The notes beneath the pieces were generated by a model. That model was not told the DNA's origin. It saw only the letters and a list, made by a program, of their open reading frames with translations, and did no database searches. Both the position numbers and the translations under genes were made by a program. From Candidatus Schekmanbacteria bacterium RIFCSPLOWO2_02_FULL_38_14 (GTDB lineage Bacteria; Schekmanbacteria; GWA2-38-11), in contig MGDH01000021.1 in the NCBI GenBank assembly GCA_001790855.1, positions 7,260 through 71,259 on the forward strand: 64,000 nucleotides of DNA. The letters run 5' to 3'. The first letter of the stretch is position 1. Each line of letters starts with the position of its first letter. Below, piece after piece: positions 112-5,267 of the stretch.

Positions 112-143
112 TAAAAAAAACCGCACCCGGAAGGGTGCGGTTT
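112..143 (-). terminator. Rho-independent terminator of the PEP-CTERM gene
   Basis: An 8-bp perfect stem (121-128 with 133-140) closes a 4-base loop. Read on the minus strand it is followed by a run of T (complement of the A-run at 112-120). It lies about 35 bp after the stop codon of the PEP-CTERM gene, so it should end that transcript. The rest of 1-111 shows nothing I can support. Confidence 0.85.
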
Positions 144-176
144 CATGATTAACTAATGAGGAATTAAGCTATAAAA

Positions 177-896
177 TTACTTGCTGGATTTCTTTCTAAA
201 TAATGACATCCCTATAAGGGCAGTTCCTAAAAGCAGCAGAGTTGAAGGTTCTGGGACTGGATTCTCATTAGTGCTTTCAATGAAGTCCATAGTCATATCA
301 GCAGAAGCCCCCCCCATAATTAAAAGGCTGATAGCCCCAACATTGGCAAAGTCAGCTGCCGAGGTACCTCCCGTAGTAAAACTGGAAAACAGGGCATTTA
401 AAGTTAGTGGAATAGCATGTGGGGTACGGGTAAATGTGAAATAAGACCATTGGGTAGCACTTGTATAAACGCTTAGTGTTATTGGACTGGAATATAAATC
501 ATCATCATAGAGTACTCGCATGGCTATGTTATCATTAGCTCCGCTTTCCGTAAGGTCTGCCCCTCCAAGGCCTGTATAATCTATAGCTGGAAGTCCATCA
601 CCACCATCCCATACAATCTGGGCGGAGCCGGTAGTCGCTGAATCAAGATTAAATTTCAGGCTGAATGATGAAGGAGGGACATTAGATGTTAATGAACCGG
701 CGACACCACTACTTACTGTCAATTCCATATCCCGCTCGCCTCCAATACCCCCACTTACACTTGAGCTAGTATAACCAGGACTTGGTAGTGAAAGTGTCTG
801 AGATGTGGTAAACGAATCTATAAGAAGTGCCTGTGTATTGTTGGCAAGTATCACAGTAAATGCTGCTAAAAATATAATAACCTTTAGATATTTCAT
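177..896 (-). CDS. PEP-CTERM sorting domain protein, exported
   Basis: Secreted protein of about 239 residues with no recognised catalytic domain. It has an N-terminal signal peptide (Lys-Tyr-Leu-Lys followed by a hydrophobic stretch, about residues 1-24). The C-terminus is a classical PEP-CTERM tail: the motif VPEPSTLLLLGTALIG, then a basic end (RKKSSK). Known families with this tail are processed by exosortase and often associate with exopolysaccharide; no exosortase gene lies in this window. The middle is rich in Ser, Thr, Gly and Asp, typical of surface proteins. I chose the ATG at 896 over the GTG one codon earlier because AAGGAG sits 6 bases upstream of it. A sigma-54 promoter and two paired upstream sites precede it, and a strong terminator follows, so it is monocistronic. 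Confidence 0.9.
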   Translation of the reverse strand: MKYLKVIIFLAAFTVILANNTQALLIDSFTTSQTLSLPSPGYTSSSVSGGIGGERDMELTVSSGVAGSLTSNVPPSSFSLKFNLDSATTGSAQIVWDGGDGLPAIDYTGLGGADLTESGANDNIAMRVLYDDDLYSSPITLSVYTSATQWSYFTFTRTPHAIPLTLNALFSSFTTGGTSAADFANVGAISLLIMGGASADMTMDFIESTNENPVPEPSTLLLLGTALIGMSLFRKKSSK

Positions 897-954
897 CACA
901 AACTCCTTAGTTTAAAAAATTAAAATTACTCTAAACATCTTTAATTTTTGTTAA

Positions 955-970
955 TGCAATTTTTATGCCA
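955..970 (-). promoter_or_regulatory. Sigma-54 (RpoN) promoter, -24/-12
   Basis: Minus-strand reading is TGGCATAAAAATTGCA. This matches the RpoN consensus TGGCAC-N5-TTGCW at all positions but one, with the invariant GG and GC exactly 10 bases apart. The predicted start point is near 945, giving a leader of about 50 bases before the PEP-CTERM ATG. Sigma-54 promoters need a remote activator; two candidate activator sites lie about 120 and 180 bp upstream. Confidence 0.8.
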
Positions 971-1073
971 TTCTAAAATAGCATTCTATTTTTTCTTCTA
1001 ACCCATTGTAATAATTTATAAAAATTCTTTTTGATACTTGTATTCGGTTAAAGTTATTTTTTCTTTTTTAAGT

Positions 1074-1102
1074 AAAAAATGTTCAAAAACCCGACGTTTT
1101 TT
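1074..1102 (-). promoter_or_regulatory. Candidate activator (enhancer) site, proximal copy
   Basis: Contains TGTTCAAAAACCCGACG (plus strand) inside imperfect inverted arms (AAAAAATGT at 1074-1082, ACGTTTTTT at 1094-1102, one mismatch). The core is almost identical to the copy at 1136-1162. Its centre is about 120 bp upstream of the -24 element, the usual place for an NtrC-class binding site. The identity of the regulator is inference. Confidence 0.6.
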
Positions 1103-1135
1103 CTATAAAAATCTAACTCATTGAAATATAAGTCT

Positions 1136-1162
1136 AAAAAGTGTTCAAAATCCCGACACTTC
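1136..1162 (-). promoter_or_regulatory. Candidate activator (enhancer) site, distal copy
   Basis: Contains TGTTCAAAATCCCGACA with arms AAGTGT and ACACTT that pair perfectly. The two sites share the core TGTTCAAAA-CCCGAC but differ in the arm bases. In each site the arms stay complementary, as expected of a dimer-binding palindrome. Centre-to-centre spacing is about 62 bp, close to six helical turns. Confidence 0.6.
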
Positions 1163-1201: not shown

Positions 1202-2356
1202 TTATACAATTGCCCTTAATCCCAGAACATTCTCTGCAATAATAAGCTTTTGAATCTGCGAGGTTCCTTCATAAATTGTAGCTACTCTTGCATCACGGTA
1301 ATACCTTTCAACAGGGAAATCATCACAATAACCGTATCCGCCGTGAATCTGGATGGCATCGTGGGAAGCCCTGACTGCTGCTTCTGTGCAGAAGTATTTT
1401 GCGATTGAGGTCTCAACAGTATTTCTGATTTTTTTATTCTTCAAATCTCCAGCCCTGTAAACAAGAAGCCGACCTGCATCCCTGTCAACCGCCATCTTTG
1501 CAATCATATCCTGAACAAGCTGGAACTCCCCGATTGGCTTGCCGAATGCTTTTCTTTCTCTTGCATAGGTTGTGCAGGCATCGATGCAACCCTGAATTAT
1601 TCCAACACACCCTGCTGCAACGCTGTACCTGCCGTTATCAAGGCAAGCCATTGCAATTTTAAATCCCTCTCCTACTTCTCCAAAAAGGCAGTTTTCAGGG
1701 ATTTCAACGTCTTCAAGAAAAAGGGCTGCGGTATTGCTTGCCCTGAGTCCCATTTTCCCTGTGATTTCGTTTGATGAGAAACCCCTGGTTTTTGTATCAA
1801 CGATGAATGCGGCAATCCCTTTATGTTTTTTGGCTTTGTCTGTTTGTGCAAAAAGAATGGCTATGTCTGCTATTCCGCCATTTGAAATCCACATCTTGCT
1901 GCCATTCAAAATCCATTTTCCGTTTTTATACCTTGCTGTTGTTGTTTGTTTTGAAGCATCACTTCCTGCGTCAGGTTCAGTCAGGGCAAAGCAGCCTATA
2001 ATTTCTCCTTTACAAAGAGCGGGGATATATTTTTTCTTCTGCTCTTCAGTTCCCCATTCAAGTATACCAAGCTCAATCAGGGAGATTTGAACAGATATTG
2101 TAGTCCTTATTGACGAGTCAACCCTGCCTATCTCCTCGCTCATTACTGCATAGCTGATATAATCAAAACCGCTTCCTCCGTATTCCTGCGGCACAGGTCC
2201 TCCGAGAAATCCAAGAGAAGCCATCTTTTTTAAAATATCCTCAGGGAAATGGCAATTCCTGTCATTTTCTTTTGCGTGGGGAGCTATTTCTTCATCAGCA
2301 AACTTTTTAGCCATCTTCCTTATCATTAACTGTTCTTCAGTGAAATCGAAGTTCAT
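1202..2356 (-). CDS. Acyl-CoA dehydrogenase (butyryl-CoA dehydrogenase-like)
   Basis: FAD-dependent enzyme of 384 residues that introduces a trans-2 double bond into acyl-CoA and passes electrons to ETF or, in anaerobes, sometimes an ETF-linked bifurcating system. Full family length. Visible signatures are the FAD-binding segment ALTEPDAGSDAS (about residues 130-140), WISNGG after it, and the C-terminal QIHGGYGY and IYEGTSQIQK, whose Glu is the expected catalytic base. A strong Shine-Dalgarno (AAAGGAGGG) precedes the ATG. No etfAB or enoyl-CoA hydratase is adjacent, so the natural chain length cannot be read from context. It sits downstream of, and on the same strand as, the arginine pair, but about 150 bp of repeat DNA separates them. 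Confidence 0.92.
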   Translation of the reverse strand: MNFDFTEEQLMIRKMAKKFADEEIAPHAKENDRNCHFPEDILKKMASLGFLGGPVPQEYGGSGFDYISYAVMSEEIGRVDSSIRTTISVQISLIELGILEWGTEEQKKKYIPALCKGEIIGCFALTEPDAGSDASKQTTTARYKNGKWILNGSKMWISNGGIADIAILFAQTDKAKKHKGIAAFIVDTKTRGFSSNEITGKMGLRASNTAALFLEDVEIPENCLFGEVGEGFKIAMACLDNGRYSVAAGCVGIIQGCIDACTTYARERKAFGKPIGEFQLVQDMIAKMAVDRDAGRLLVYRAGDLKNKKIRNTVETSIAKYFCTEAAVRASHDAIQIHGGYGYCDDFPVERYYRDARVATIYEGTSQIQKLIIAENVLGLRAIV

Positions 2357-3569: not shown

Positions 3570-4796
3570 CTATATCTGGAACAGGTAATTAGTTAACTCC
3601 CTTAAAAAAAGTTCTGCATCGGTTACAAGACCAATAGCCTGAAAACTCCCCCTGTCAGCAAGCTTTGTTACCATTTCGGGATTTATGTCAACACATACTG
3701 TAGTAACAGATGAAGGAAGAATATTGCCTATTGCTATGGAGTGAAGCATTGATGCAATCATTATTGAAAGAGAAACATCTTTTATTTTGTTGCGCATCAG
3801 CGCCTGTGCTTCATTTGTATCTGTAATTACTTCAGGCAAAGGCCCATCATCTCGGATTGAACCTGCAAGAACGAAATCGACACCATTTTTTATGCAGGAA
3901 TACAGGATTCCTTCCCGCAGTATTCCCTTCTCAACAGCTTTTTTTATTCCACCAGCTTTTCTTATGGTGTTTATTGTCCTGAGATGATGTTCATGACCTC
4001 TTTTGGTCTGAACGCCCTCTTTTAAAGAGACACCAAGGGATGTCCCGAACAGCGAGGCTTCAATATCGTGGGTTGCAAACCCGTTTCCGGAAAACAGGAT
4101 GTCAATAAACCCTTCATTAATTAAGATTTCTAAATATTTTCTTGCTCCGGTATGGATAATTGCAGGTCCGCAGACAAAAAGGATTTTTCCTTTCCTCTTG
4201 CTTTTTATCTCTTTCATATTCTCTGCTATGTTTTTAATGATAAGCCATTTTGATTTCTCAGGAGATATTGAACTGCCCATAAACTCAAAGACACCCTTAT
4301 GCTTGATTCTTTTTCCTGGGTCAACCCTTACTCCATCATGACCTAAAACTATTTTATCTCCTCTTTTTACTTCATTCATTTTTATACAATATGCCTTCTT
4401 AAAGTCATTTGTGACTGCGATACCGCTGTCCATGCAGATATTTTCTACCTGAAGCCATTTCCCTTTAATATAAATTTCTGCTGGAAGATTGGTGGTTATG
4501 TGAAAGTTATCAGGAAAGATTCCATCATTTTCTGTTTCTTTTAATTTGACCTCTGTCTGCCTGACCGGAGCAGCGCCGAGCTTAAGGATTCTTGACATTA
4601 TGTTTTCAATGATTGGTTTTGATGGGGCTGTTACTTTTATTCTGGCGTAACTCGGGTCTTTTTTTGTCCTTCCTATTTTTATTTCCTCTGATTCGTAGTT
4701 TCCGCCGTGGTCCAGAATTTCATCAAAAATTTTGGGAAGGGTTAATGAATCAATGATGTGTCCTTTTATTTCAATAAGCTCTGAAAACTTTTTCAT
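3570..4796 (-). CDS. LOR/SDH-type ornithine cyclodeaminase (TIGR00300-like)
   Basis: Protein of 408 residues resembling the LOR/SDH bifunctional-enzyme conserved family, whose AgrE C-terminal domain converts ornithine to proline plus NH3 using bound NAD. The N-terminal 100 residues (HIIDSLTLPKIFDEILDHGG...) are the characteristic substrate domain. A nucleotide-binding Rossmann segment starts near residue 200 (GKILFVCGPAIIHTGA). It precedes the arginine dihydrolase on the same strand with a 266-bp gap filled by a MITE-like repeat, so co-transcription is possible but not assured. Upstream sequence shows no good Shine-Dalgarno. Other members of the family were once called lysine-ketoglutarate reductase/saccharopine dehydrogenase; that role is less likely here given the partner gene. 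Confidence 0.78.
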   Translation of the reverse strand: MKKFSELIEIKGHIIDSLTLPKIFDEILDHGGNYESEEIKIGRTKKDPSYARIKVTAPSKPIIENIMSRILKLGAAPVRQTEVKLKETENDGIFPDNFHITTNLPAEIYIKGKWLQVENICMDSGIAVTNDFKKAYCIKMNEVKRGDKIVLGHDGVRVDPGKRIKHKGVFEFMGSSISPEKSKWLIIKNIAENMKEIKSKRKGKILFVCGPAIIHTGARKYLEILINEGFIDILFSGNGFATHDIEASLFGTSLGVSLKEGVQTKRGHEHHLRTINTIRKAGGIKKAVEKGILREGILYSCIKNGVDFVLAGSIRDDGPLPEVITDTNEAQALMRNKIKDVSLSIMIASMLHSIAIGNILPSSVTTVCVDINPEMVTKLADRGSFQAIGLVTDAELFLRELTNYLFQI

Positions 4797-4852
4797 AAAT
4801 TTTAAAAAATATGTTTGACGTTTGAATTAAATGCGAATTTTTTGTAAAGACA

Positions 4853-5119
4853 AGCTAAACAGTCTGACCGAGAATGGTCATTGCGAGGAGCAAAGCGGTT
4901 GCGAGGCAAAGCCGAAGCAAACCCGGAGCAGATTCCTTCGCTTCGCTCGGAACAAGCTCCGCAATCTGACCCGAAGGGTCATTACGAGAGCCGATTTATC
5001 GGCTCGTGGTAATCTCATTAGATTGCTTCGCTTAAGCTCGCAACGACTTCGTCGGATTGCCACGCTCCCTTCGGTCGCTCGCAATGACAAAAGGGAATTC
5101 TCAGTCAGCCTGTTAAGCT
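4853..5119. repeat. Long inverted-repeat element (REP/MITE-like)
   Basis: Ends are GTCATTGCGAGGAGC (4877) and GCTCGCAATGAC (5077-5088). Both lie inside outer arms AGCTAAACAGTCTGACCGAGAAT (4853-4875) and its near complement at 5097-5119. Internal units (TTCGCTTCGCTCGG, GCCGATTTATCGGCTCG) are themselves palindromic. It fills the space between the divergently oriented cyclodeaminase and epimerase genes. Open frames across it on both strands are by-products of the repeat. Confidence 0.75.
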
Positions 5120-5267
5120 GCGTTAGCAAAAAGTTAAAATATATTTAATTATATATTAGTTATTGAAATTATAAAAGAGAAATATTTTGTTGTGAAGTTT
5201 TTTCATTGACGAAAAATATTGCCTGTGATAGCTGATTAAAAATAGTTTGAATGGAGGGAAAAGAGAG

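Follow-up and report, generated by a model that had tools for sequence, protein, structure and literature searches.

The region upstream of a PEP-CTERM protein gene in Candidatus Schekmanbacteria is probably a three-part enhancer of a PrsK/PrsR-sigma-54 regulon, in which an IHF-type bend would join PrsR dimers. It lies in a 64 kb stretch of DNA, the window, taken from a genome of 2.68 Mb (the home genome, labelled G000), and comprises two 17-bp boxes, an IHF-like site between them and a sigma-54 promoter, all on the minus strand.

The gene itself (177..896, minus strand) encodes 239 residues from an ATG at 896, the open reading frame being called from a GTG at 899. Its N-terminus is signal peptide-like and its C-terminus reads VPEPSTLLLLGTALIGMSLFRKK, with scores above cut-off for both TIGR02595 (28.5 bits, cut-off 16) and PF07589 (29.5 bits, cut-off 20.7). 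The product thus named has the C-terminal PEP motif, membrane helix and basic tail of an exosortase substrate, and the genome encodes an exosortase. The transcription unit consists of this one gene, closed by an intrinsic terminator with a 12-pair stem and a T-run (117..144, minus strand) and preceded by a ribosome-binding site read directly from the sequence, CTAAGGAGTT (901..910, minus strand). The near-consensus sigma-54 promoter proposed by the first-pass annotation is indeed present: the -24/-12 element TGGCATAAAAATTGCA (955..970, minus strand) has no mismatch to the TGGCAYNNNNNTTGCA pattern, and promoter geometry, 12 nt past the -12 GC, predicts a transcription start at 943..945 on the minus strand, near 944. 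Elsewhere in the window, at 4831-5148, frames of the two strands overlap and contain SLRATEGSVAI/ARNDK-like peptides, which suggest a mobile or repeat-derived element; neither internal repeats (4780-5200) nor a second copy in the window were found.

The two 17-bp cores that the same annotation had noticed upstream of the gene were recovered as a proximal box, CGTCGGGTTTTTGAACA (1080..1096, minus strand, 26.6 bits), and a distal box, TGTCGGGATTTTGAACA (1142..1158, minus strand, 25.5 bits), both scored with a 39-site matrix. They stand exactly 62 bp apart. Measured from the sigma-54 element, their starts lie 126 and 188 bp upstream; measured from the predicted transcription start, their centres lie about 144 and 206 bp upstream. 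Their description as palindromes needs qualification: a dyad, TGTC...GRACA, is there, but it is imperfect, and the box is nearly always oriented toward the promoter. Likewise, the flanking arms are complementary at the distal box (AAGTGT/ACACTT), but those of the proximal box consist largely of A/T runs, and the outermost position of its core is mismatched. Allowing three mismatches or fewer, the window holds four box matches against 0.5 expected, a number reached in none of 100 shuffles.

Inverted repeats in such a place could also be terminators of the upstream gene, here an acyl-CoA dehydrogenase-like gene (named from reading its sequence; 1202..2356, minus strand) that is outside the system and whose stop lies 44 bp before the distal box. 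This box and its flank do fold as RNA (-9.8 kcal/mol, z = -2.2) and are followed by a T-run. The proximal box, on the other hand, shows no fold (z = 0.2), boxes are present on contigs C22, C24 and C25 of the home genome despite a divergent neighbour gene, and conservation extends to the loop sequence and to the way the boxes face sigma-54. The terminator explanation is therefore largely refuted and very improbable, a second function of the distal box being possible.

Across the home genome, a search with the box core found a box and a sigma-54 site in the same orientation at 10 promoters, that of the window and nine others (C24:14182, C25:50171, C26:44133, C28:61681, C22:32607, C28:11769, C23:21005, C29:22574 and C37:3895). 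The box points at a sigma-54 promoter in all four box-bearing PEP-CTERM units and at no fewer than six other promoters. Six PEP-CTERM matches were found in this genome, four being first genes behind a box region and one the second gene of a tandem. The remaining match is a 44-aa frame (G000:C9:82660-82731, minus strand) just downstream of prsR, whose end is a good PEP-CTERM, VPEPSTFALLGIGILAGIVIKKRVS. It has neither box nor sigma-54 site and may be what is left of a gene, or else encode a cargo protein of very small size. With one mismatch or none, seven box matches were obtained in the home genome versus one for a reversed-pattern control. The box marks a specific subset of sigma-54 promoters and is no general feature of them, since among the 22 perfect TGGCAYNNNNNTTGCA sites of the genome just six have a strong box, the others scoring 8.5 bits or less.

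The survey was widened to four Schekmanbacteria genomes, counting sites with up to two mismatches and at least 300 bp of downstream sequence. A near-consensus sigma-54 site was found 30-300 bp downstream of 7/7, 11/12 and 21/39 box sites with zero, one and two mismatches, respectively, and on the wrong side of 0, 1 and 1 of them. Pooling sites with one mismatch or none, 18 of 19 point at a sigma-54 promoter, so good matches seldom occur without one downstream, and the proposal that the motif could serve as a genome-wide search key is borne out. In total, 35 distinct box promoters were identified. The unit counted here is the promoter, not the independent event, though sequence similarity from promoter to promoter is low; common descent of copied promoters, considered as a source of the fixed layout, was largely excluded because the 100 bp upstream average 33% identity, with a maximum of 62%.

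As the first-pass annotation had anticipated, the motif also stands upstream of other PEP-CTERM transcription units. In genome G003, ten PEP-CTERM genes are preceded by enough sequence for this comparison; nine have the region, and the tenth is in tandem beside another PEP-CTERM gene. Most targets have signal-peptide-like starts, and several of them lack a PEP-CTERM (a subtilase, an FG-GAP protein and lipoprotein-like proteins). Two targets of the home genome stand out. One is an 85-aa protein (G000:C22:32897-33154, plus strand) without a signal peptide or a Pfam match, in contrast to the other targets; its gene stands behind a full region with paired boxes, IHF-like site and sigma-54 promoter. 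The other is the box-driven secreted protein of the G000:C29:22574 region, of 155 aa, which ends in a long aspartate run (polyD tail).

Pairing of the boxes is the rule. With a matrix trained on the first boxes of the same promoters, a second box was detected at 28 of 34 promoters and, with the threshold unchanged, in 4.8% of shuffles; a few promoters have only one detectable box. The spacing is 62-68 bp at 19 of the 28 (23, 31, 85, 88, 110, 118 or 139 bp at the remainder). A strict pair pattern, tuned to the box of this phylum and so missing variants elsewhere, occurred in 4 of 386 sampled genomes, exactly the four Schekmanbacteria, and in none of the other 382. Phasing of boxes to promoter by 10.5 bp is suggestive only (Rayleigh p 0.005 for the strongest box at each promoter, best period about 10.75 bp). 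In genome G001, two head-to-head boxes 63 bp apart (C69:2925-3004) form a pair readable from both sides, with a sigma-54 site on one side only.

That the region is of the enhancer type was a correct call, but its third part had been overlooked, namely a conserved IHF-like element between the boxes. In the window this is TTTCAATGAGTTA (1114..1126, minus strand), 32 bp from the start of the distal box, and it fits the form of an IHF site, WATCAANNNNTTR preceded on the 5' side by an A/T tract, with one mismatch. The tract is CTTTTTA (1135..1141, minus strand), which flanks the distal box 8 bp ahead of the IHF-like core and is kept in most box pairs. In the lambda H' site an A-tract likewise lies about 8 bp before the core. 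Of the 22 pairs spaced by 62-65 bp, 17 have an exact CAANNNNTTR core 34-36 bp from where the distal box starts, whereas shuffled spacers gave 0.09 expected at that offset and a maximum of two in 2000 shuffles. The IHF-like site is mostly inverted, at an offset of 20-21, in 66-68-bp pairs, and inverted at 50-51 with no mismatch in 118-bp pairs. No position-locked IHF-like site was seen nearer the promoter.

These data also bear on the possibility that the motif arose by chance in AT-rich intergenic DNA. Sites with two or three mismatches are indeed largely background, but the window shuffles, the reversed-pattern control, the association with sigma-54, the second-box rate and the fixed offset of the IHF core all speak against it, and the four-genome survey refutes this possibility with hardly any residual doubt.

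A more serious question is whether the middle element, lying between what would be two ordinary PrsR boxes, binds some other regulator or simply serves as structural spacing. WATCAA is incompletely kept, position 33 being half A and half T; T38 and G41 are conserved outside the IHF consensus; and in an AT-rich genome weak IHF matches are frequent (a mean of 3.7 in 20 shuffled spacers). Against this, the conserved CAA-N4-TTR is the core of IHF sites and keeps its offset in most pairs, the inversion and shift in 66-68-bp pairs are possible for the site of a bending protein, and an IHF-alpha-like protein is encoded on contig C11 (NF001401, 112.1 bits, cut-off 111; under the cut-off of TIGR00987). 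No IHF-beta was detected in the portion of the home genome that was read. In the IHF consensus WATCAANNNNTTR, given as WATCARxxxxTTR in PMC3897727, CAA-N4-TTR makes up the conserved portion. On balance, we regard a middle element unrelated to IHF as rather unlikely, and an IHF-type site as the better description.

The link of PEP-CTERM genes to RpoN and a PrsR-like activator, also part of the first-pass annotation, is supported in this genome. One PrsR exceeds its NCBIfam cut-off (TIGR02915, 570.7, cut-off 502.6), as it does in each of the four genomes of the phylum, and its best match among named genomes is from Candidatus Schekmanbacteria GWA2_38_11 (73% identity). The PrsR gene (C9:83142-84509, minus strand) is adjacent to those of PrsK (TIGR02916, 426.6, cut-off 300), EpsI and an exosortase (TIGR02602, 169 bits, cut-off 105.55; under the XrtA-specific cut-off), with PrsT (TIGR02917, 565, cut-off 312.2) close by and rpoN elsewhere in the genome. 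About a dozen NtrC-like regulators are encoded in all. The recognition helix of PrsR, SRGTLYDL, is nearer those of a Desulfovibrio vulgaris regulator (SRPTFYDL) and of Vibrio PrsR (TRPTLYHL) than those of other NtrC-type regulators listed from the home genome.

Next to prsT in the exopolysaccharide locus lies another regulator of the NtrC type, itself flanked by a kinase (G000:C9:76962-79537), and a counterpart regulator occupies the same place in G003 (L229:17358-18743). The same architecture might thus serve a different NtrC-family activator, this prsT neighbour for example, given that regulator and kinase share the locus. Its recognition helix, TRATLIYRMEKY, however, resembles that of an unrelated regulator of a metal-efflux locus and not that of PrsR, and the box half TGTCGG is common to the PrsR-type box of Vibrio and Photobacterium. 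We consider such an activator improbable and retain PrsR as the candidate.

We propose the following mechanism. Phosphorylated PrsR dimers would bind both 17-bp boxes, while IHF, or a bender of the IHF/HU type, would bind between them and fold the segment of about 63 bp. The two dimers would meet at the fold and seed an AAA+ hexamer, which would contact sigma-54 RNA polymerase at 970-955 by DNA looping. The PEP-CTERM gene would then be switched on, along with at least nine other promoters, mostly of secreted proteins. Binding of PrsR to the boxes and of IHF to the middle site, as well as activation by such binding, are inferred from the elements and proteins encoded. The joining of two PrsR dimers by the bend is our reading because the bend site lies between the activator sites and not between activator and promoter. 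We lean, by a small degree, towards a distinct Schekmanbacteria enhancer in which IHF would assemble the activator oligomer itself, beyond merely assisting looping, and which would control PEP-CTERM proteins and further secreted proteins as one regulon throughout the phylum. If the role of IHF is true, the spacings of 62, 63, 64, 66, 68, 85, 110 and 118 bp form a natural series for probing bending and helical phase in the building of AAA+ hexamers, usually a matter of work on single promoters.

The binding site was said to be readable here, and it is; it has in fact been readable since Haft et al. 2006 (PMC1569441), who described in Proteobacteria a 17-nt motif 1, sometimes repeated, together with a sigma-54 motif 2 at an average spacer of 62.8 nt (32-92), and predicted PrsR as its binder. 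The two systems share a 17-nt box upstream of the sigma-54 promoter of mostly single-gene PEP-CTERM units, encoded PrsR, PrsK and PrsT, and a TGTC(G/A)G left half found in both the Schekmanbacteria box and the Vibrionaceae examples. Indeed, in Vibrio and Photobacterium replicons with PrsR, TGTC..TTTTACA boxes and sigma-54 sites precede all four above-cut-off PEP-CTERM genes, and weak one-mismatch IHF-like matches occur at differing positions between box and promoter at three of the four promoters. The Schekmanbacteria box, in contrast, ends in TTTTGRACA, with a right half GRACA in place of TTTACA/TTACA; the box closest to the sigma-54 site usually begins 93-137 bp from it, a spacer of mostly 76-120 nt versus 32-92; most promoters have two boxes with an IHF-like site between; the regulon includes secreted proteins without PEP-CTERM; and the motif was seen by Haft et al. 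only in Proteobacteria. We class the region, which is related to that system and would act in a similar manner, as a variant of it because its right half-site, distance, pairing and middle element differ.

In D. vulgaris, the available portions of two reports (PMC3333781, PMC4641369) describe DVUA0057, a PrsR-like regulator beside exosortase and EpsI genes that bound predicted PEP-CTERM targets in DAP-chip and shares its predicted motif with DVU0110; its sigma-54 promoters and PEP-CTERM/exopolysaccharide targets are alike, while a layout of paired boxes and IHF is not reported in those portions. RpoN is required for pepA of Aquincola (PMC9850573). Activators of sigma-54 must oligomerise before acting, a step that multiple sites favour, and the usual position of IHF is between the activator site and the promoter (PMC6296734, PMC7057263). 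The IHF-assisted orp promoter of D. vulgaris (PMC3897727) and CbrB targets of P. putida (PMC6296734) likewise combine an enhancer-binding protein, IHF and sigma-54 RNA polymerase, with IHF between activator site and promoter, whereas in Schekmanbacteria the locked site is between two activator sites.

No paper joining 'Schekmanbacteria' and 'exosortase' was found in the non-subscription literature searched, where the three-part layout likewise appears to be a new variant as regards IHF between paired activator sites. By sequence resemblance, the box is the Schekmanbacteria form of Haft's motif 1 and predicted PrsR site, and the basic finding is of a known kind. Through it, the control of exosortase cargo by PrsK, PrsR and sigma-54 reaches an uncultured phylum, for whose regulon there is now an exact search key. 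What is new is the occurrence of the box outside Proteobacteria with the whole regulatory set, the presence of two boxes at most promoters, usually 62-68 bp apart, and the IHF-type core at a fixed place between them.
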